DNA from: Diacronema lutheri
Taxonomy: Eukaryota > Haptophyta > Pavlovophyceae > Pavlovales > Pavlovaceae
DNA length: 64,000 bases
Assembly (NCBI GenBank): GCA_019448385.1
Contig: JAGTXO010000005.1
Span: 868,001 to 932,000, forward strand
Reading direction: 5' to 3'
A program made the translations under genes and the position numbers. Position 1 is the first letter of the stretch; each line of letters starts with the position of its first letter. The notes beneath the pieces are model-generated. The model searched no databases. It saw nothing but the letters and a program-made list of their open reading frames with translations, and was not told the origin of the DNA. Of the stretch, positions 11,301 through 23,227 are shown piece after piece.

Positions 11301-12713
11301 TCACAACCTGAGCGCGCTGCCCGCGGCGCGGAAGGCGGCGATGTCCGCGATGGCCGAATAGGTGCCGACGAGCATCGCGCAGCCGCAAAAGGCCATGAGC
11401 ACCACGTGCACGGCCGTGCGCGTGCGCGAGAAGGTGACGAGGCCGAGGCGGTGCAGCTTGAGCGAGAGCGCGAACGGCAGCAGGGCGAGGCTCGCCTGGC
11501 AGAGCGCGCCGAGTAGCGCGATGAGCAGCTCGAGCGCGGGGACGAGGAACACGACGAAGACGCACGCCGCTGTGATCCCGACGCGCCGCGCGACAAATGC
11601 GGGCCCGTGCCAGCCGCTCGGCTTCCCGACGGCGGGCGGTGGCGCGCAGAGCCGATCGAAGATCATGGCGGCGGGCTGCAGTTGCAGCGGGTAGGTGAGC
11701 AGCACGGCCAGGCTGACCAGCGCGTTCACTGCCGGCAGCCACCAGCCTGCATCCTCCCGCTCGGCTAGGAAAGCGGTGACGGAACCCGAGTCGATGTGCG
11801 GGAACGCCGCCGCGACGCTCGAGCCGAGCAAGACAAAGAGCAGCGCGACGCAGCCCATCGCCGCGACGAGCAGCGCCTCGAAGCGGCGTGCCCGCCGCTC
11901 TTCCGCCGCCTCGAGCCCTTCGACCAACCCCGCGCTGCCGTCCGCGCTTGGCGCGTGCCCGTCGGCCGCGGCCGGCAGCTGCGCGGCCGCACCGTCGCCT
12001 CCGTGCGCCGCGAGCATTTCGACGCCGGGCGAGGTGCGCGTGCCGGTGCCCGGGCGAAACGGGCTGAACGCGTTCTCCACCGGCAGCACGAGCGCTATGC
12101 CCTCGTACGCAAAGAACTCGACGCTCAGGCACCGCGCGACCGTCGCGGCCGTGACGCGCCGCTCGATCGGCTCAGCCGGACCATCGCGCGCCGCGAGCAC
12201 GCGCAGGCTGACGCCGACGGCGGTGGCGATGGCAGTGAGCATGATCGCGTTGGCCGTCGTCGAGAGCAGCCACAGGTCCGAAAGGCCGCGCAGCAGCGAG
12301 AGCAGCGCGCAGACGCACGAGACGGCGAGGAAGACGGCGCGCTCGGGCACGGCCGGCACGCCCGCGTGCACGTTTGTGACGAGCAGAGAGATGTAGATGC
12401 AGCAGACTCCGAGTTGGAGCGCAACGACGAGCGCGCCGATCAATCGCCTGCCCACCGCGCCGAACGCGATTTCGCCAATGTCCTCGTATGTTTGCGCCTT
12501 GAGGCCGTGCGCGCGCACCGCGTGCTTGCACCGCACGATCAGCACCATCGAGTAGGTGCCCTGCAACGCAACGACCGCGAAGAGGCCAAGCGCGCCGCCC
12601 GTGCCAAGCCTCGCGAACACGAGGGGCAGCGCGAGGCACCCCGCACCGAGGTTGCCTTTGAGCAGGTGCGTGAAGGCGCGCGCCGACTCTGTGTCGAAGC
12701 GCTCCGCCACCAT
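11301..12713 (-). CDS. Amino-acid/auxin permease family transporter (AVT/SLC36-38 type)
   Basis: 470 residues, single exon. It opens with TESARAFTHLLKGNLGAGCLALPLVF, the first-helix signature of the AAAP family (T-x-x-H-L-L-K-x-N-x-G-x-G-x-L-A-L-P), followed by ten or eleven hydrophobic helices including VCCIYISLLVTNV, FFAYEGIALVLPVENA and LTYPLQLQPAAMIFDRL. The family exports or imports neutral amino acids across vacuolar or plasma membranes by proton coupling. An unusually long Gly/Ala/Glu-rich cytosolic loop (about residues 215-270) separates the two halves. The frame is open upstream to 13055, but that extension is Arg-rich noise, so 12713 (MVAERFDTES) is preferred. Confidence 0.85.
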   Translation of the reverse strand: MVAERFDTESARAFTHLLKGNLGAGCLALPLVFARLGTGGALGLFAVVALQGTYSMVLIVRCKHAVRAHGLKAQTYEDIGEIAFGAVGRRLIGALVVALQLGVCCIYISLLVTNVHAGVPAVPERAVFLAVSCVCALLSLLRGLSDLWLLSTTANAIMLTAIATAVGVSLRVLAARDGPAEPIERRVTAATVARCLSVEFFAYEGIALVLPVENAFSPFRPGTGTRTSPGVEMLAAHGGDGAAAQLPAAADGHAPSADGSAGLVEGLEAAEERRARRFEALLVAAMGCVALLFVLLGSSVAAAFPHIDSGSVTAFLAEREDAGWWLPAVNALVSLAVLLTYPLQLQPAAMIFDRLCAPPPAVGKPSGWHGPAFVARRVGITAACVFVVFLVPALELLIALLGALCQASLALLPFALSLKLHRLGLVTFSRTRTAVHVVLMAFCGCAMLVGTYSAIADIAAFRAAGSALRL

Positions 12714-13567
12714 CGTGCCTGCCGAACCGTGGGAAAGCAACCTCGGGAAAGCCCCCGCGAGGCGCCTGGTCCCAATCGGCGCGGCGCTCGCTTGCGCGAC
12801 CGCGCCGGCCGGCAGCTTCGGCCGGGGGCAACAACGTCTACGGCCTGCCTCGGAACGGCTGCCTCGACGACGCCCACGTTGATCGTTACGGCTGCTGCGC
12901 CTTCGCGCTCGGGTGGCCGCGCACCGCGCGCCCCGTCGCCCCCGGCACCACGAAACGTACGTTTCGCCCATGGTTTGGGGACGGCGAGGCGCGCGTGCGC
13001 GGCCGCGCGGGCTGCATCGTGGCGTGTGACACATTGGCGGCGGACTGTGGCGCACTCTGCGGCGACGACGGGCCGCGCGGAGGCGCCTGGCTAGGTGCGG
13101 GGCGGCGGTTGGGGCTCAGGCCGGGATGAGTGTTCGACGTGGAAGGCGGCGGCTCACTGATGACGGGCGGCGACACGCCCGTCGTCGGCGTCGGGTTGCA
13201 CGGCGTCGTGGAGGGTAGCGGCCCGCTGGTGGCGGGCGGCTCACTTTTCGGCGGCAGCGGGCGGTGCGGTGGCGTGGCCGGCGGCGGCGCGGGGGCGGCG
13301 GTCGTTGAAGGCCGCCTCCGGGCCTCTGCGTGTGGATTGCACGGCGTCGCCTCTCGGGCTGCCTGCATGCGCAAGGCGTCGACGACGAGGGTGGCTCTTG
13401 ACTCTTCAGTCCTCTGCCGTCGATGACTGGCAGTCTGGCACCCTTGACTCGCTCTTTCTTCCGTTACAGCGTTTCTGCCTTTCTGGGTCCGTTTTTGCGC
13501 GTCGCCACACACGGAGATCTGAGATCTCAACTTCGCTCATCTCGGGTCGTGCACGCTCCCGGCCGCG
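12714..13567. other. Intergenic region, 854 bp, with one dispersed repeat
   Basis: No gene I can support lies here. It holds the promoters of the divergent transporter (minus) and the asparagine synthetase fusion (plus). A minus-strand open frame at 12886-13530 is Pro/Ser/Thr-rich and looks like low-complexity translation. From 13224 to 13333 lies one copy of a dispersed repeat (see separate entry). Confidence 0.7.
13224..13333. repeat. Dispersed repeat, copy 1
   Basis: About 110 bp, from CGCTGGTGGCGGGCGGCTC through GGCCGCCTCCGGGCCTCTG, recurs with few differences at about 58909-59046. The shared part includes CTTTTCGGCGGC, GGCGGTGCGGTGGCGTG and GGCGGCGGTCGTTGA. It is not simple sequence, so it is likely a remnant of one repeat family. 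Family unknown. Confidence 0.75.
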
Positions 13568-16500
13568 ATGTGCGGGATCCTCGCGCTCTTTGACGGAGCG
13601 CTGTCGGCGGCGGAGCTTGAGGCCCTGTGCAAGCGGTTGACTTCGCTCCTCAGCCACCGCGGCCCCGACGAGGTAGGCTGCCACGTCGGAGGCGGCTTTG
13701 CGCTCGGACATGCGCGCCTCTCGATCATGGACCCGGCGCACGGGCATCAGCCGCTGGTGCACGCGCCGACGGGCAACGCGGTCGTGCACAACGGCGAGAT
13801 CTACAACCACGCCGAGCTTCGCGAGCGCGCGGCGCTCGAAGCCGCCGCGGCGAGGGCGCCGCCGGTCGTGTACGCGACGCACTCGGACTCGGAATCCATC
13901 CTGCCGCTCTTCGAGACGCACGGCGCGCACGTGGCGGCGATGCTCGACGGCATGTTCGCGTTCGTCGCGGTGCGCCCTGATGGCACATGCGTTGCCGCAC
14001 GCGACCCGTGCGGCATCAAGCCGCTGTACCGCGGCTGGAGCGCGAGCGGCCGCGTGCTCTTCGCGTCGGAGCTCAAGTGTCTCGTCGGCCACGTCGAGCA
14101 CGCGGAGGAGTTCCCGGCCGGCCATCTCTGGACCGCCGAGGGCGGGTACGAGCGGTACTTTGCGCCCGATTGGCTGCGACCCACCCTCGACCCTGCCGCG
14201 CCGCTCATCCTGCCAACCGGCGGCGTCGAGCGCGTGCGCGGCCTGCTGAAGCGTGCGGTCGCCAAACGGCTCATGTCCGACGTGGGCTACGGCCTGCTCC
14301 TCTCGGGCGGGCTCGACTCGGCGATCGTGTGCGCGCTGATGGCGGAGCTGACCGACATGTCCAAGATCAAGTCGTTCACCGTCGGCATGCCCAACTCACC
14401 CGACATCATGGCCGCGCGCGAGGTTGCCAAGCATTTTGGCACCGTCCACCACGAGTACCTCTTCTCGCCCGACGAGGCCTTCGCGATGGTGCCGCAGGTG
14501 GTGTACCACCTCGAGACATACGAGCCTGAGCTGATCCGCTCGTCCATCCCAAACTACTTCCTCGCAAAGCTCGCCGGCGCGCACACCAAAGTGGTGCTCA
14601 CGGGCGAGGGCGCGGATGAGCTATTCGCCGGCTACCTCTATTTTCGCGACTGCCCCGACCGCGAGGCGATGCAGCGCGAGACGCTGCGCATCTGGGGGCA
14701 CCTGCACAACGTCAACCTGCAGCGCTCGGATCGGATGGGCATGGCGCACGGCCTTGAGGCGCGCGTTCCCTTCCTCGACGTCGAGCTGCTCGAGGAGGCG
14801 TACGGCAGGGTCGACCCGGCCGCCAAGATGCACACGGCCACCAAAGCAGAGAAGCACGCGCTGCGCGCGCTCTTCGAGGGCGAGATCCCGCACGACGTGC
14901 TCTGGCGGACCAAGGCGATGCAGTGCGAGGGCGTCGGTACCGACTGGGTGTCCATCCTGCAGGCCAAGTGTGCGGCCGCTGTGAGCGACGCTGAGTTTGG
15001 CGCCGCGAGCGCCACGTTCCCGCTCAACCCGCCGCAGTCCAAAGAGGAGTTCTACTACCGCAAGCTCTTCGCGCAGTCGCACGCCGGGATGGACCACTTT
15101 GTGCACGTCTGGGAGGGCGGATGCCGCGCGGGCGGCGCGGCGTGGCAGAGCGCCGTGTACACGCGCGCCGGCCTGGCGGACACGGCGCAGCTGCGGCACG
15201 CGCTCATGGACGCGGACAAGGAGGGAGAGGACGCACGCGGCGAGGGTCTGCGCGGCACGGCCGACGGCACGGCCCGCAGCGGCGCGAGCGACGCGGCCAA
15301 CGCCTCCGCCATCGACCCGTCGAGCGGCGCCGGCGCCAAGCGCAATGCCGCCGACCCGCTCGGCGGAGCAGCGAGCAGTTTGCCGAGCGGGAGCACGACG
15401 AGCGAGGTGATGCGCGCTCTCGCCGACGCGGGAGTGCGCGCGACCGAGCTGCACGAGCTGCTGGGCACCGGCGGCGACTCGCGCATCTCGCTCAAGGCGG
15501 GCGTCAACAAGTACGGCATACCCGCGACACCGCAGCCGCGCGCGGTCGTGCGCTCGTCGTGCACATCGTCGCCGCCCACCGCCGCGGGCTACGCGGCCGC
15601 CGCCGAGGTGCTCGCGCGGATGGCGTCGGCGGACGGGACGATCGATGCATTTGGCGCCGAGATGCGCGCCGTGCGCACGCGCATCGCCACGGCGCTCAAG
15701 CTGCCCGCCGGCTCCGAGGTCGTGCTCGCGCCGTCGGGCGTCGAGGCAGAGTACATTGGCATGCTCGTCGCACAGCAGCTCCACCCGCACGCGCGGCTTC
15801 ACTCGATCGTCGCCGCCGCCGGCGAGGTGGGCACAGCGACAGCCGAGGCGGCGCGCTGCGTGAGCTACGACAACCTCACGCCGTTTTGCGCGCCCACCGC
15901 CCGCGCGCCGACCAAGGGCTCGCTGCTCGACGGCTTTGCGCACATCGAGCAGTTCTGCGTGCCCGCGCGGGATGCGACGGGGAAGCAGAGCGACGAGGCC
16001 GCGGCAATCGGCGCGCACATCGACGCCGTCGCGGCGGCGAGCGCCGAGCCGATCGCGTGGGTCGTGCGGCAGGTGGCGGGTACGAAGACAGGCTTCACAA
16101 CCTCGCTGCCCGATGCAGCGTCCGCCTGCGGCGCGCTCCCCGCCGATGCGCTCGTCGTGATCGACGCATGCCAGCTGCGCGTCAGCTGCGAGCTGGTGCA
16201 CAGCTACTTGCGGCAGGGCCAAGTCGTTTTGATCACCGGCTCCAAGTTCGTGCACGGCGCGTCCTTCTCGGCCGCCATCCTCATCCCACCAGAGCTCGCG
16301 CAGCGCCTCGAGGCCGTGCGCGACGCGCCGCCGCTTCCCGTTGGCCTCGGCGCGCACTTCTCCGCGCACGAGATGCCCGACCGCCTCTCGCGCTGGGCGG
16401 AGCAGCTGCACCGCTCGCCAAACCTTGGCTTGCTGCTGCGCTGGCACACGGCGCTGCCGATGCTCGAGCGGCTCTGCGCCCTGCCCGACGGCGAGCGTAC

Positions 16501-17112
16501 GCGCCTCGAGGACGCGTGGGCCGCGAGCGTTGCTCAGCTCGTCGAGCGGCAGCCCCGCCTTTCCGTGCTCTCGCGCGAGGCGGGCATCGTCTCGTTCACG
16601 TGCGCGCGGCCGAGCGCCGACGAGGGCATGTACGGCCTTGACGAGCTCGCAAAGGTCCATCGCTGGCTGCAGGAGGACTTTGCGCACGTGCAGGGCGCGC
16701 GGCCGTGCGCACACCGCTCGCTGGTCTGCTTCATCGGCCAGGCGGTCGCCATCACGCGGGTGCGCGCGCGCGCGAGGGCTGCACGCGCGCCCTGCGCGCG
16801 CGCGCGCGCGACGTGGCGGCGCAGTGCCACTCCACGGCGCAGTGCCACTCCACGGCGCAGTGCCACACCACGGCGTAGCTGCCGCGAGCGCCGTGCTGAC
16901 CCCAGGCGCGCTCGATTTCCCCTGCGCTTTGCTCCGTGCGCCCGTTGCTCTCTCTGCAGGGCGTGGCGGTGCTCCGGATCGCGTCGAGTGCTGACTTGCT
17001 CGTGCGCCTGCACGACGGCGCGTACGAGCTCGCCATGGAGGAGGCGCTCGTCGACAAGATTGGCTGGCTCATCGAGTCGTACGATGCGGTGCTCGACGCG
17101 GCCTTGCGATGA
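13568..17112 (+). CDS. Asparagine synthetase (glutamine-hydrolysing) fused to a PLP-dependent transferase-fold domain
   Basis: Two exons, 13568-16759 and 16960-17112, giving 1,114 residues. Residues 1 to about 200 are a class-II glutamine amidotransferase with nucleophile Cys2 (MCGILALFDG), SHRGPDE, and HNGEIYNHAEL. Residues about 220-510 are the synthetase domain: PP-loop LLSGGLDSAIV at about 244-253, GEGADELFAGY near 350, and RMGMAHGLEARVPFLD. These are complete, so asparagine synthesis from aspartate, ATP and glutamine is expected. After a linker (about 560-640) a second enzyme-like domain resembles fold-type-I PLP enzymes: SGVEAEYIGMLVAQQL, SIVAAAGEVGTAT, VVIDACQLR with Asp866, and ITGSKFVHG with candidate Schiff-base Lys893. 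Its substrate is unknown. The last exon adds 50 residues (GVAVLRIASSADLLVRL...) that continue this domain. Intron 200 bp, donor GTGCGC. No frameshift or stop separates the two halves. Confidence 0.85.
16818..16871. repeat. Three tandem 18-bp units inside the intron
   Basis: GGCGCAGTGCCACTCCAC at 16818-16835 and 16836-16853, and a variant ending ACACCAC at 16854-16871. The array lies wholly within the intron of the asparagine synthetase fusion gene. Confidence 0.9.
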
Positions 17113-17219
17113 AGTGACTTCGAGGGCCGCATCGCGCGTGTGATGCGCGCACGGCCAAGCGCCGTGTGGTGTGCGCAAAACGGAGCGGGCGGCGTGGCGC
17201 CTCGAACACCCTCAAAGAG

Positions 17220-17305: not shown

Positions 17306-19326
17306 TCACACCTTCTTGCAGTAGTTGGGCCTGCAGAGGGGGTTGTTCACGCGCGGCAGGACGTGCGAGGCGCGAGGCGAGTGCAGCGCGGTGAGCTGCG
17401 AGGCAGCGACCGCGGAGAGCGCGCGCGCACGGCGGGACCGGGACGCATTGTGCTCGGGGCAGCGTACGGAAAGTAGCCGGACTGGCCTCGGTCGTTTGAG
17501 CCGAAGAACCAGCCATCCTCCTCCTTCTCTTTAGTCAACAGGTCGCCCTTCTTAAGCGCGAGCATGCGCGGGTCTCCGGGCGCGTAGTCTGTGAGCGCCT
17601 TGTACTTCTCGCCCGCGACTGGCGCAGCGCCAAACAAGTCGACGGGCGCGGAGGGCTGCTGCTGCTGCGGCTGCTGCTGCTGCTGCTGCGCCGGCGCGGC
17701 GAATGGGTCGCTGCTGCCGCCGAGCAGGTCGACCACCGGTTGCGGCTGCGCGGCCGGCTGCGCGTGTTGCTGCAGCTCGGACTGGCCCCACGGGTCCGCC
17801 TCGGGCGTCGCAAACGCCGACGGTGCGGGCGCGGCGGCTGGCTGCGTCGCGGCGGCAGTTGGCGCTCTCTGCGCGTGCAACTCCTCCATCGATACAACCT
17901 GCGCACGGGGCACGCGCGGCGGCGCGGGAAGCACGGCGCGCGCGCGTTGCACGAGCGCGCACGCTACAGAACACGCCACATCCCATCCGCACGCCACATC
18001 CCATCCGCACGCCACATCCCATCCGCACGCCACATCCCATCCGCACGCCACATCCCATCCGCACGCCACATCCCATCCGCACGCCACATCCCATCCGCAC
18101 GCCACATCCCATCCGCACGCCACCGCGCGGGCGCGGCGCGCATGCCAGGCGGCGCGCCCGCGCTCACCGGCGGATTCGCCTGGTGGTCGTCCTCTGCTGC
18201 CCAGCCCTTGTCCTGGCCCGCATCCGCGCCCATCTCGCCTGCAACGATCTGTTCAACCGTGAGCATTGCTCGCCTGCGCGACGGGCGAGCGTCCATCGCG
18301 TTCTTCGCCGAGGCGAGCGCCTGTTCGGACGTCCACTTGGCGAACGGCGCGAAGGCGGTGAAGACGCCGCCAAAGTAGTTGCGCTGCATTGCGAGCACCT
18401 GCGTGAGCGGGCCGCCGTAGAAGGCGAAGCGCTCGGACATGAGTTCTCGCATCCTCGCACGCACCTCCTCGGTGAGCGCGAGGAAGATCTGACGGCTTTG
18501 CTCGAGCTTAAACGCGTTGCGCGAGATCTTCTCGTCCATGTTCTTCTCGCCGCGCTTCTTCTCCAGCTCCGTCGTCTTTCCCCTGGGAAGGCGCGCGGCA
18601 CGCGCGGCGAGTGGCCGTAGAGGCGCGCCGGCGTGAGAGGCGCGCGGACTCCGCGTCAAGCGCCGGCGCGCGCAGGCAAGTCCGCACCTGTAATAATCAA
18701 AGTCTTGCCGGCGCTTCCGCCTGTGCTCCCAGAGGTCGGCCACCTTGTCAAACTCCGCGAGGTGCGCCTTGAGCGGCTCCAGGACGGCGTCGTCGACTAC
18801 TTGCTCGAGCTGACGAATCGAAAGAGCGCCCGCCTCCTGCCACGCCTGCGTGTTGGCGACCACCGCCGGGCGATGCTCGGCGCTGACATCCGAGTAGAGC
18901 TCATTGAGCTCCTGCGCGGCCGACGAGGCGAGGTCGTCGCGTCAGCGCGCGCCGACGTGGCGCGCGCCGCGCCGCCTCGCCGCGCGCGCCACCGCGCGAG
19001 GCTCACGTGTGCAAGCGCCGCGCCGCTTGATGTGGCGAGCTTGAGGGCGCTGACGTGCGCGACGATCGACGCATGCACTTTCTTCGCAAGCGCGTGGTGC
19101 TCCTTGCATTGCACGACGAGCTGGTCGTAGTCCTCGTCGTCGTGCGTCTCGTCAGCCTTGCCCAGCTTCACCTTGGTCGTCTGCTTGGTGCGCCGCCATC
19201 TGCGCGCGCGCCCGTCGGGGAGCGTGCGCGCGTGGCGGCGCGGAGAAGCGGTTGGCGCGCGGGTGCGCGCAACGCGCCGCGCACGGCGCGCGCCACGCAC
19301 CCATCCTTGAGCGTGTCCTTGATCAT
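17306..19326 (-). CDS. BAR domain and SH3 domain membrane-remodelling protein
   Basis: Six exons: 19326-19301, 19199-19007, 18911-18688, 18582-18168, 17898-17468 and 17330-17306, giving 437 residues. The N-terminal two thirds is a helical BAR domain (KQTTKVKLGKADETHDDEDY, WQEAGALSIRQLEQ, LEKKRGEKNMDEKISRN, RARMRELMSERFAFYGG), which forms a curved dimer binding membranes. A Gln/Pro/Ala linker with DPF and DLLGG/DPFAAP motifs (typical AP-2/clathrin-adaptor ligands) leads to a C-terminal SH3: KYKALTDYAPGDPRMLALKKG, DGWFFGSN, GYFPPNYCKKV. The layout matches plant SH3P1-3 and opisthokont endophilin/amphiphysin relatives, so a role in endocytosis or vesicle scission is likely. Introns 101, 95, 105, 269 and 137 bp. 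The final exon codes only eight residues after the split proline codon; it restores the normal SH3 end. Confidence 0.9.
17977..18120. repeat. Intronic minisatellite, eight 18-bp units
   Basis: CACATCCCATCCGCACGC is repeated eight times without visible mismatch. It lies in the fourth intron (17899-18167) of the BAR-SH3 gene. On the minus strand it would translate as repeated CGWDVA if the intron were retained. Confidence 0.95.
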
Positions 19327-19439: not shown

Positions 19440-22197
19440 ATGCCGGCGAGGAGGATGGCCGACGAGACGACCGCCCGGCAAAATCGCGGCGAGCGGTGGG
19501 CCGCGCGCCTCCTCGCTATTGTCGACGTGCTCGCGGGCGCCGCGCTCGTCGGCTATTTCGTCGCACACCCCCGAGCTGGGCCGCACCGCGGTGATGCGCC
19601 GCGGCGCGCGCGCGCGCTCGTGGCGTTGTGCTTGCCGGCGGCGGCTGTGAGCGCGCGCGGCGCAGGCTCGCTCGGCCTGAGATGCGCGCGCTCAGCGTGG
19701 AGGCGGAGCGCGAGCATCGCGTGGCTTACGCTGATAACGCTCGCAGCCTTTGCGCTGGCCGGCGTGGAGCTCGCGCGAGAGGCTCACGTGGCGCCACCGG
19801 GCGCACGAGGCGCGGTCGCGGCGCTGCGCGCGCTCGCATGCTATGCGGCCGTCGCGGCGGCGGCGCAGCTCGTGCTGCTCCTCCGTGACCGGAGTGAGCC
19901 CTGCACGCGCGCAACGAGCGCGCCATTGCTCGAGCCTGCCGCGGACGGCAACGCTGGCGAGCGTCCAGCGGCCGCCGCGCCGGCGGCCGCTCCGGCGCGC
20001 GGCGGGGGTGGCGGCAAGCTCTGGCGGATCCTCGCGCTCGCGAGGCCCGAGGCGCCGACGCTCGCGTTCGGCACGCTCGCACTGCTCCTCGATTCTACTG
20101 CGAGCCTCCTCGTCCCCAAGTTCTTCGGCGGGCTGGTCGACTCCGTCGCCGTTCGCGACGGCCGCGCGCTGCGCGCGCAGACGGGTCAGCTCGTCGGGCT
20201 GCTCGCCATCGGCGCGGGCATGACCTTCGGCCAGCAGCTCGCGTATGGCATCGCGGGCGAGAAGATTGTCGCGCGGCTGCGCGCACACCTGTTCCGCCGC
20301 ATTCTCGCGCAGGACGCGTCCTTCTTCGACGTTGCCAAATCGGGCGAGCTGATCTCGCGCCTCTCGTCTGACTGCACCAAGTTGCAGGACGCGGCGACCA
20401 ACGACATCTCGGCGCTCGTCGCGTCCGCGGCTTCGTGCACCGTCGCCGTCGCGCTCATGTTCGCCACGCAGTGGCGCCTGACGCTCGTCACGCTCGCCGT
20501 CATCCCGCCCATGGTCGGCGCAGCCGTCGTGTACGGTCGCGCGATTAGCCGGCTGTCGCGCGCGTACCAGGACAAGCTCTCCGCAGCATCCGGAATCTCG
20601 GCAGAGGCGCTCGGCGCGCTCAAGACGGTGCGCGCGTTTGCGGGCGAGCCGCTGCAGCTCGCCGCCTACGTGCATGCCGTTGGCGACCCGGACGGCGAGG
20701 GCCTGCTGCGCGTGCCGCTGTGTGCGCTGCGCTCGGGTGTGCGCGGCCTCTCGGCGTACGCGCTGGGCGTCGTGCGCTCGCTCTGGCTTGGCGCGTTCGT
20801 CTCGGCGATCACGCTCGCCTTCTTCCTCGCAATCGTCGCGATCCTGTGGTACGGCTGCCTGCTCGTGCTGCGCGGCGTGAGCACGCTCGGCGAGCTCGTC
20901 GCGTTCGTGCTGTACGCGGTGCAGATCGGTGGCTCGATGGGCGCGATCGCCTCACACATGTCCGCGTTCGCCGAGGCAATCGGCGCGAGCAGCCGCGTCT
21001 TCGAGCTCATCGATCGCGTGCCCGCCCTCCCTTCGCTCCTCGACGCGCCCGGCGCGCCGACCGTCGGCGGCTCGGCCAGCGCTGACGGCGCGCTCGCGCA
21101 GCCGGGCGCCAATGGCGACGGCGACGCGGGTGCGCCCGCGGTGCCGCGCGTGTGCTTTGAGCGCGTGAGCTTCGCATACGCCGCGGCGCCCGACCAGCCG
21201 GTGCTGCGCGACGTGTCGCTCGCGGTGCCGCGCGGTTCGACCGTTGCGCTCGTTGGCCCGTCGGGCGCGGGCAAGTCGACGGTCTCTTCTCTGCTGCTGC
21301 GCATGTACGCGCCCACCTCCGGGCGCGTGCTGCTCGACGGGCGCGACCTCGCGACCGTCGACTTGCTCGAGCTGCGCAGCCGGGTGGGCGTCGTCGCGCA
21401 AGAGCCCGTGCTCTTCGCCGCGAGCATCTTTGAGAACATCGCGTACGGGGCGCGCTCGCGCGAGGCGGCGAGCGCCGGTGCGCGCGCAGCCGGCTCGGTG
21501 CGCGGCGGCTCGGGCGCCGCGAGCGCGGCGGCGGCGAGCGACGCGGCAGCGCTCCGGGTGCGCGTCGAGGATGCGGCCCGGCGGGCGCACTGCACCGAGT
21601 TCATTGCGTCGTTTGCCGACGGTTACGAGACGCTCGTCGGCGAGCGCGGCGTGCGCCTCTCGGGCGGGCAGAAGCAGCGCGTCGCGATCGCGCGCGCCCT
21701 GCTGATGAGCCCGCCCGTGCTCGTGCTCGACGAGGCGACCTCCGCGCTCGACGCCGAGTCGGAGGCGCTCGTCGTCGCTGCGCTCGACACGCTCACGTCG
21801 GGGCGCACGACGCTCGTGATTGCCCACAGGCGAGGGCTCGCCACGCCGCCGGCGCGCGGCACCGCCAGCGCGCCGGCTCGCCCTCGCGCGCGGGAGGCGC
21901 GCGCACTCATACCCGTGCGCCATCGCGCGCGCACGCCGCGCGGCGGCTCGATGCGGCAGGCTCTCCACCGTCGTGAACGCGGACCAGATCGTGTGTATGG
22001 TGGAGGGGCGCGTGGCCGGGGCGGGTACGCACGTCGAGCTGTTCAAGAGCTGCGCCGCGTACGCCTCGCTCATCACGAGGCAGCTCGCGGCGCAGCACGC
22101 GGACCGCGACGCACTCGCGTCCAACGCGGGGCCGGGCCGCCTCGTCACGGACGCGGCGACCGCCTCGGAGCCCCCGTGCGATGCGGCACGCGCGTGA
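19440..22197 (+). CDS. ABC half transporter, ABCB/TAP type
   Basis: Two exons, 19440-21829 and 21960-22197, 875 residues. The N-terminal hydrophobic region (about 1-150) adds extra helices, as in TAP and ABCB9. A standard exporter membrane domain with six helices follows (residues about 200-530), then one nucleotide-binding domain: Walker A GPSGAGKSTV near 607, Q-loop VVAQEPVLF, signature LSGGQKQRVAIARALL near 740, Walker B VLVLDEATSALD near 760, and H-loop His796. The intron interrupts the codon directly after the H-loop (LVIAH, then RLSTVVNADQ) and has a GC donor (GCGAGG) with a CAG acceptor. Half transporters dimerise; lysosomal, vacuolar or organellar peptide or metabolite export is typical, substrate unknown. 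A second ATG at 19455 is possible. Confidence 0.88.
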
Positions 22198-22287
22198 CCC
22201 TATATAGGGCGCGGTCCGGGCTGGTCCGGCCAGTAGGGGGCTGACCGGCTGACTATATAGGGCGCGGTCCGGGCTGGTCCGACCAGT
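22198..22287. repeat. Direct repeat of a 34-bp TATATAGGGCGCGGTCC unit, plus CCCTATATAGGG palindrome
   Basis: TATATAGGGCGCGGTCCGGG and its continuation occur at 22201-22234 and 22254-22287 (period 53), differing at one base near the end. The first copy starts inside a 12-bp palindrome CCCTATATAGGG (22198-22209) that begins at the base after the ABC transporter stop codon. Confidence 0.85.
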
Positions 22288-22317: not shown

Positions 22318-22996
22318 AATCAAGGGTTAAAAGCCAGGCAATGAGCGCTCGAGGGGTCGGAGCGAGGCTTAGGACGAGCCTAGGACCGAGACCTCCCTCC
22401 GACCGGCCGATTTTGAGTAGAATTCGGGGTCGAGCGGGCGCGGCGGACGGAGGGCCCGAGAAGGGCCGACGGAGGGTCCGACCCCGGAATGCGGGCGACC
22501 GGAAGGGCTCGAGTGATTTTGACGCCCAGTAGAATAGAATGGCGGATTCCGGGGGGGGTCGCAACTGGCATCGCGCAAGCTGAGGCGCTCTGACTGACCG
22601 GACCGCGCCGAGTGCGCGTGCACCCCGAGGAGGGCGCGGCCTCGGACAGTGTTCGCGGCTGAGCTCGCTGCGGCATACCGTACGCCGCTGCTGCTCGGGC
22701 AGCGCTACTTGCCCTTGGCCGAGCTGCGGATGTTGCGCGCGGCCGTGTTGCGCAGCCAGCGGCTGGATGCGCCGGTGGCCGGAACCTTGGCGCGCTTTGA
22801 CTTGGCGACCTCGGCCTGCGCAGACTCGAACGCGTGCGTGAACTCGAGGCGTTGCAGGTGGCGAGCACGTGAGTTCGCGTAGGAGGTCTTGTACTCGGTG
22901 GCCTGGCTGTCGACCGACGAGAGCTTGGGCGAGTTCGGCGGCACGTTGGCTCACTCGGGCTCGGTGCGCGGCTCTGCCGGCGCGGGCGCGGGCGCG

Positions 22997-23227
22997 GGCG
23001 CGACGTTCTCGGACTCGCTGCCCGGTTCTGCCTGTGCGGGCGCGGTGCACTTGGACTCGCTGCCCGGCTCTGCCTGTGCGGGCGCGACGCTCTCGGACTC
23101 GCTGCCCGATTCTGCCTGTGCGGGCGCGGTGCACTTGGACTCGCTGCCCGGCTCTGCCTTCGTGGGCGCGACGCTCTCGGACTCGCTGCCCGGCTCTGCC
23201 TTCGTGGGCGCGGTGCACTTGGACTCC
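22997..23227. repeat. Five and a half tandem 42-bp units
   Basis: Units starting GGCGCG(G/A) occur at 22997, 23039, 23081, 23123 and 23165 with a partial unit from 23207. Two variants alternate: one with GGTGCACTTGGACTCG and one with GACGCTCTCGGACTCG. On the minus strand they encode 14-residue repeats alternating PAQAEPGSESKCTA and PAQAESGSESESVA, so the array expanded as 84-bp pairs. Confidence 0.9.

Follow-up and report, generated by a model that had tools for sequence, protein, structure and literature searches.

Does the gene at positions 13568..17112 (plus strand) of the window analyzed here, a 64,000-nucleotide stretch of the genome of the haptophyte Diacronema lutheri (contig JAGTXO010000005.1, positions 868,001 to 932,000), encode a single protein, and what might such a protein do? 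An initial annotation, made from the sequence alone, had described it as a complete asparagine synthetase (AsnB) that continues in frame into a domain resembling pyridoxal 5′-phosphate (PLP)-dependent enzymes. Our analysis points to one bifunctional enzyme, which would combine an AsnB-type amidation of a carboxylate with a PLP-dependent reaction on the same compound or on its precursor; we assign this reading a probability of about 0.4.

Splice reconstruction confirmed both ends of the gene and its predicted product: the open reading frame starts with ATG at 13568, ends with TGA at 17110-17112 and, after removal of one predicted intron, encodes 1114 amino acids (aa). The frame comprises (i) an AsnB-type glutamine amidotransferase part (residues 1-515; 13568..15112), (ii) an in-frame linker (residues 516-615; 15113..15412), whose second half is rich in Ala, Gly and Ser, and (iii) the PLP domain, of which residues 616-1064 (15413..16759) are encoded by exon 1 and the last 50 residues, followed by the stop codon, by exon 2 (16960..17112). 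Exon 1 spans 1064 codons, as against a longest stop-free run of 582 in 200 mononucleotide shuffles of the same exon. Third-position G+C content reaches 0.90 across the AsnB part, 0.92 across the linker and 0.91 across the second domain, with 0.88 for exon 2. Since the linker resembles both of its flanks in this respect, coding appears to continue across the junction, and the sequence carries no sign of two genes. The in-frame fusion proposed earlier is therefore borne out, with the addition of a predicted intron after position 16759.

The unspliced frame from the same ATG has no stop until position 17143 (1191 aa). From approximately position 16760, it encodes low-complexity residues, codon-phase G+C disappears and the third-position value falls to 0.68. 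Homology resumes beyond position 16959, where VLRIASS of the alga faces VLRVAAS of a bacterial relative (the longer GVAVLRIASS of exon 2 matches TVLRVAAS), and exon 2 also carries Arg1070, a residue invariant in the bacterial family described below. We infer from the loss of codon phase, the resumed homology and the GT-AG borders an intron at 16760..16959; alternative in-frame donor sites are possible a few codons upstream of 16760. The putative intron contains an 18-bp tandem repeat (16817-16875). Further short tandem repeats are located at 17972-18123 and 22992-23226 of the window, the repeats being built of 18-bp and 42/84-bp units.

Sequence comparison alone failed to identify the second domain. 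The Pfam model Aminotran_5 was matched neither by the whole protein (E≤1), nor by the domain alone (E≤10), nor by four bacterial relatives (E≤1), and the domain alone yielded only a sub-threshold TerB match against Pfam at E≤10. A phmmer search of the PDB with the second domain returned one chance match (E 0.88). A profile built from five sequences of the domain family gave only E-values of 0.77-1.4, and one of 63 sequences gave 0.066 or worse, its best row being an unrelated designed protein, with SecA rows scored between the desulfurases. The predicted structure (AlphaFold model, pLDDT 89.1), compared by Foldseek and VIA, has the PLP fold-type I, aminotransferase class V-like. The PLP assignment, which had been deduced from two motifs, thus finds support in the predicted fold, and likewise in a bacterial family with an invariant Asp/Lys pair. 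These residues, located where the initial annotation had placed them, are Asp866 (16163..16165), which is expected to pair with the ring nitrogen of PLP, and Lys893 (16244..16246) of the TGSKF motif, the expected Schiff-base lysine. In weak profile matches, none of them significant individually, the Asp866/Lys893 pair aligns with that of selenocysteine lyase (E 0.08), and Lys893 with the lysine of IscS and, when the family was compared with the decarboxylases of the bacterial operon described below (hhalign E 0.084, probability 0.7%), with the decarboxylase lysine; the matched lysines stand in GHKF or HKW.

Homologues covering the whole domain are present in bacteria (E 1.6e-44, about 30% identity), e.g. 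WP_133255566.1 and WP_011971043.1, both annotated as "hypothetical protein". They were found by tblastn on plasmids and then by an alignment query, the best 80 of 270 relatives being taken; because the ranking followed similarity to a rhizobial protein, nearer kin of the alga may fall outside the best 80. The tree and the conservation analysis comprised 77 rows, one for the alga and the others for bacterial open frames of 431-719 aa, and the structure alignment (A3) the alga and 62 of 70 loci. The family shares the motifs GGDxR, SKTG, DACQxR and TGSKF, and its invariant residues, including Asp866, Lys893 and Arg1070, are found in 77/77 sequences. It was detected in 25 of the 398 Pseudomonadota genomes sampled (a count that includes the centre genome, which had been selected for carrying the gene) and, at E≤1e-5, in two of 288 genomes of Verrucomicrobiota, one of them the centre genome there (the one with locus L077) and the other scoring only 26 bits. 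No relative was found among phage records (E≤0.01) or viral contigs, there was no PADLOC match, and a related-locus search with the algal domain alone returned nothing. The members scanned matched no Pfam model above the cut-off, and the one scanned against NCBIfam gave no match. Within the genome of the alga (43,492,796 bases, 103 contigs; searched with the domain at E≤1), the PLP domain occurs in one place only. It lies on a long branch of the family tree, at a position not settled by bootstrap.

The N-terminal half scores 523.4 bits over residues 1-508 against the NCBIfam asnB model NF006949 (cut-off 499), and matches PF00733, PF13537 and the E. coli AsnB structure 1ct9 (E 3e-100). The motifs reported initially (Cys2, SGGLDS, GEGADELFAGY) are all present. 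Cys2 (13571..13573), aligned with the Cys of AsnBs, is the expected N-terminal nucleophile of the glutaminase, and SGGLDSA (residues 246-252; 14303..14323) forms the pyrophosphate loop; HRGPD, NGEIYNH, the SD of the glutaminase site, GEGADE and the WRTK lysine (residue 449) were also recognized. In the alignments, all of the glutaminase residues listed in PMC6748925 (N-terminal Cys, Arg, Asn-Gly-Glu, Asp) are retained. The same applies, in human numbering, to the synthetase residues Glu-364, Gly-365, Asp-367, Glu-368, Arg-403 and the catalytic Lys-466 (named in PMC6748925 and PMC11615228), beside which Ser-362 is replaced by Thr and Ser-366 by Ala.

The view that the AsnB is complete therefore holds for the glutaminase and ATP residues, but not for a number of conserved positions, which are replaced, nor for the C terminus, where the DPSGRA-type tail is absent. 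We compared the fused protein with nine other AsnBs: the second AsnB of the alga, six from bacterial plasmid records, one from a viral contig and a partial stretch of human ASNS. Asp-334 is replaced by Glu, Thr-336 by Glu, Asp-400 by Asn and the FSD motif by QCE (human numbering), each invariant in the nine. Thr-337 (Thr in eight of the nine, Ser in one) is Leu, and positions 334 to 337 correspond to the altered segment EPEL (residues 319-322; 14522..14533). The fused protein departs from the others at 24 of the 109 columns that are invariant among them, three of these being the missing tail. Leave-one-out counts for the eight full-length AsnBs (human ASNS being excluded) gave 1-9 departures in 121-129 columns, a comparison by order of size only, as the column sets differ. 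PMC6748925 describes Thr-336 as a surface residue of the synthetase site, highly conserved across kingdoms, and reports that the T336I substitution almost abolishes glutamine-dependent activity; according to the same source, Asp-400, together with Glu-364 and Asp-367, surrounds the amino group of a bound inhibitor. The changed positions also deviate in two AsnB-family proteins of different kinds (one from locus L142, XrtA-like by our own reading, and the viral L150). On sequence grounds, the synthetase site appears to have been re-shaped, with retention of the glutaminase and ATP machinery. Since several positions of this site are replaced, the amidated acid may not be, or not only, aspartate.

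The alga contains a separate AsnB gene (C28:259345-260250, minus strand; a 677-aa frame) with canonical motifs, whose product shares 39% identity with the fused AsnB and 53% with an E. coli AsnB. It has an N-terminal extension, which we take to resemble a plastid-targeting leader; the extension stops just before CGILAVFD, and processing could expose the Cys. The fused protein begins directly with MCG, and is therefore probably cytosolic. The word "asparagine" is absent from the main text of the D. lutheri genome paper (PMC8379373).

The genetic context of the bacterial genes was analyzed in 73 of the 80 loci, since simple gene picking gave no anchored open frame in seven (L016, L021, L031, L046, L049, L055 and L059). 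Within three genes of the PLP-like gene, a group II PLP decarboxylase is encoded in 56/73 loci, an ATP-grasp ligase in 46/73, and both in 40/73. The one decarboxylase scanned matched PF00282 (E 8e-68), its best NCBIfam matches, NF052646 and PanP, remaining below the cut-off. The ligase matched the RimK family (E 1.8e-7, below the cut-off) and, by profile, structure 3vpd (E 0.0013). The ends of the ATP-grasp and PLP-like genes are at most 26 bases apart in 29 of the 46 cases, and both lie on one strand in 44. Two gene orders are exemplified by decarboxylase - ATP-grasp - PLP-like gene (e.g. L061, L133-L137, L140) and ATP-grasp - PLP-like gene - decarboxylase (e.g. L012 of Rhizobium rhododendri, and R. 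tumorigenes). The operon-bearing loci (L013-L092, L129-L148) originate mostly from Pseudomonadota, and also from Thermodesulfobacteriota. We know of no name for this recurrent combination. In Sinorhizobium medicae and Rhizobium jaguaris, the PLP-like gene is located directly behind a giant nonribosomal peptide synthetase gene.

A blastp comparison covering the open frames of loci L007-L092 yielded no AsnB relatives, and tblastn with the second AsnB of the alga over all loci found one among the bacterial neighborhoods, in L142. This AsnB was set aside as a partner: it lies six genes from the PLP-like gene and lacks asparagine-type motifs. A gene between the two is presumably exosortase-like. 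As a separate observation, the ATP-grasp partner of R. rhododendri (L012:4032-5807) has 592 aa, compared with approximately 415 aa in many other loci, and includes an extra C-terminal part.

The analysis shows the genomic fusion, the operon context in bacteria, the predicted fold and homology of the second domain, the conserved sites and the changes in AsnB; from these, a scheme may be proposed for the activities, the acceptor, the order of the steps and the pathway. Each half retains the residues that its basic chemistry would call for (glutamine hydrolysis with ATP-dependent amide formation in one, a PLP Schiff base in the other). Cys2 of the N-terminal half would hydrolyze glutamine and release ammonia to the ATP site, where a carboxylate would be adenylated and converted into an amide. 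The C-terminal half would bind PLP on Lys893, with the ring nitrogen facing Asp866, in a fold similar to that of cysteine desulfurases and cystine lyase, and would perform a lyase or aminotransferase type of reaction on the amidated compound or its precursor. Since the bacterial relatives are often encoded beside an ATP-dependent ligase and the algal domain is fused to an amide-forming enzyme, the common denominator would be a pathway with an amide-forming and a PLP-dependent step acting on a compound derived from an amino acid; the bacterial gene context also suggests these two steps side by side. Since domains that are fused often belong to the same pathway, the algal gene in turn suggests that the ATP-grasp/decarboxylase/PLP operon of bacteria leads to an amino acid derivative with an amide group. 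The role that the ATP-grasp enzyme has in bacteria, an ATP-dependent step of amide formation, may fall to the AsnB half in the alga. A wider proposal, which we regard as unlikely, is that the algal protein is a self-contained, single-polypeptide eukaryotic version of a widespread and undescribed bacterial pathway, in which a re-shaped AsnB replaces the ATP-grasp ligase and acts with a new class V PLP family on an amino-acid-derived amide. No ATP-grasp partner was found in the algal genome (best E 0.023 over 50 residues), although a search by single exons may overlook genes; the nearest decarboxylase homologue is on another contig (E 4.8e-20).

Several observations weigh against the preferred reading. 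The replacement of the ATP-grasp ligase by AsnB is drawn from a missing match and an analogy, and neither partner was found in 11/73 bacterial loci. The Foldseek TM-scores are modest (about 0.42-0.62 among the matches listed). The AsnB half passes the NCBI asnB cut-off, and it retains all four residues that, in a model from 2024, contact the aspartyl portion of the intermediate (Gly-365, Asp-367, Glu-368 and Arg-403; PMC11615228), so that it may still make asparagine; this lowers the odds of our reading and of the wider proposal. The main rival is asparagine channelling, raised in the initial annotation and one option among several: the AsnB half would make asparagine, and the PLP half would transaminate or cleave it, e.g. 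in nitrogen recycling, as an aminotransferase of the asparagine:glyoxylate type. The retained residues and the asnB score speak for plain asparagine; against it stand the replacement of Asp-334, Thr-336, Asp-400 and FSD and the existence of a second, canonical AsnB. Moreover, none of the loci examined has an asparagine-type AsnB directly beside the bacterial relative, and the second domain has no Aminotran_5 match. We therefore consider channelling doubtful.

Other evidence bears on the PLP half itself. Leaving the start Met aside, the alga has lost six residues that at least 97% of the 76 remaining sequences share (A667S, T725V, D837A, S839T, P898A and W936M; the next worst rows lose four, the median is 0), and its branch measures 2.43, compared with a median of 0.3. 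This half may thus have changed its function or lost its activity, which also lowers the standing of the bifunctional enzyme. Both the long branch and the losses, including D837A and T725V in the expected phosphate loop, would fit a non-catalytic regulatory or oligomerizing domain attached to a working, drifted asparagine synthetase; we judge this improbable, as Lys893, Asp866, Gln869, Arg871, Ser723, Gly724, Arg958 and Arg1070 are all kept. Two independent genes sharing only a frame, or a fusion created by misassembly, are highly improbable, given the absence of a stop between the halves, the coding signature across the linker and, as reported in PMC8379373, the PacBio assembly of strain NIVA-4/92 at about 315x coverage with Illumina polishing.

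Two neighboring genes encode transporters. The product of one, a divergent gene (11304-13055, minus strand), is an amino-acid transporter (PF01490, E 7e-46); this gene and the fused one could have a promoter region in common. Downstream (19440-22241, plus strand), an ATP-binding cassette transporter with membrane and ATPase domains (PF00664, PF00005) is encoded.

The fused protein resembles E. coli AsnB (39% identity over 518 residues with an E. coli AsnB) and human ASNS in its N-terminal Cys, glutaminase motifs, SGGLDS, GEGADE, WRTK lysine and Arg-403, but differs from them in the replaced Asp-334, Thr-336, Thr-337, Asp-400 and FSD, in the absence of the tail, and in its extra domain. Unlike the class V enzymes NifS/IscS, C-DES cystine lyase, carbon-sulfoxide lyase (8iry) and AGT, with 8-16% identity among the VIA matches listed, this domain has motifs of its own and matches no Pfam model above the cut-off. 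It shares whole-domain homology and invariant residues with the PLP family of the bacterial decarboxylase/ATP-grasp operons, whose examined genes are unfused and adjoin no AsnB relative. The literature searched, judged by its listings, offered no description on point of an AsnB/PLP fusion, a haptophyte asparagine synthetase or the bacterial operon, in agreement with the earlier remark that no standard enzyme is known to have this domain order. Two well-known enzyme folds are thus joined in an order without a description in that literature. The fused gene provides a first handle on a PLP-enzyme-like family widespread in bacteria, and may point to a step of amide formation in algal metabolism that is as yet undescribed.
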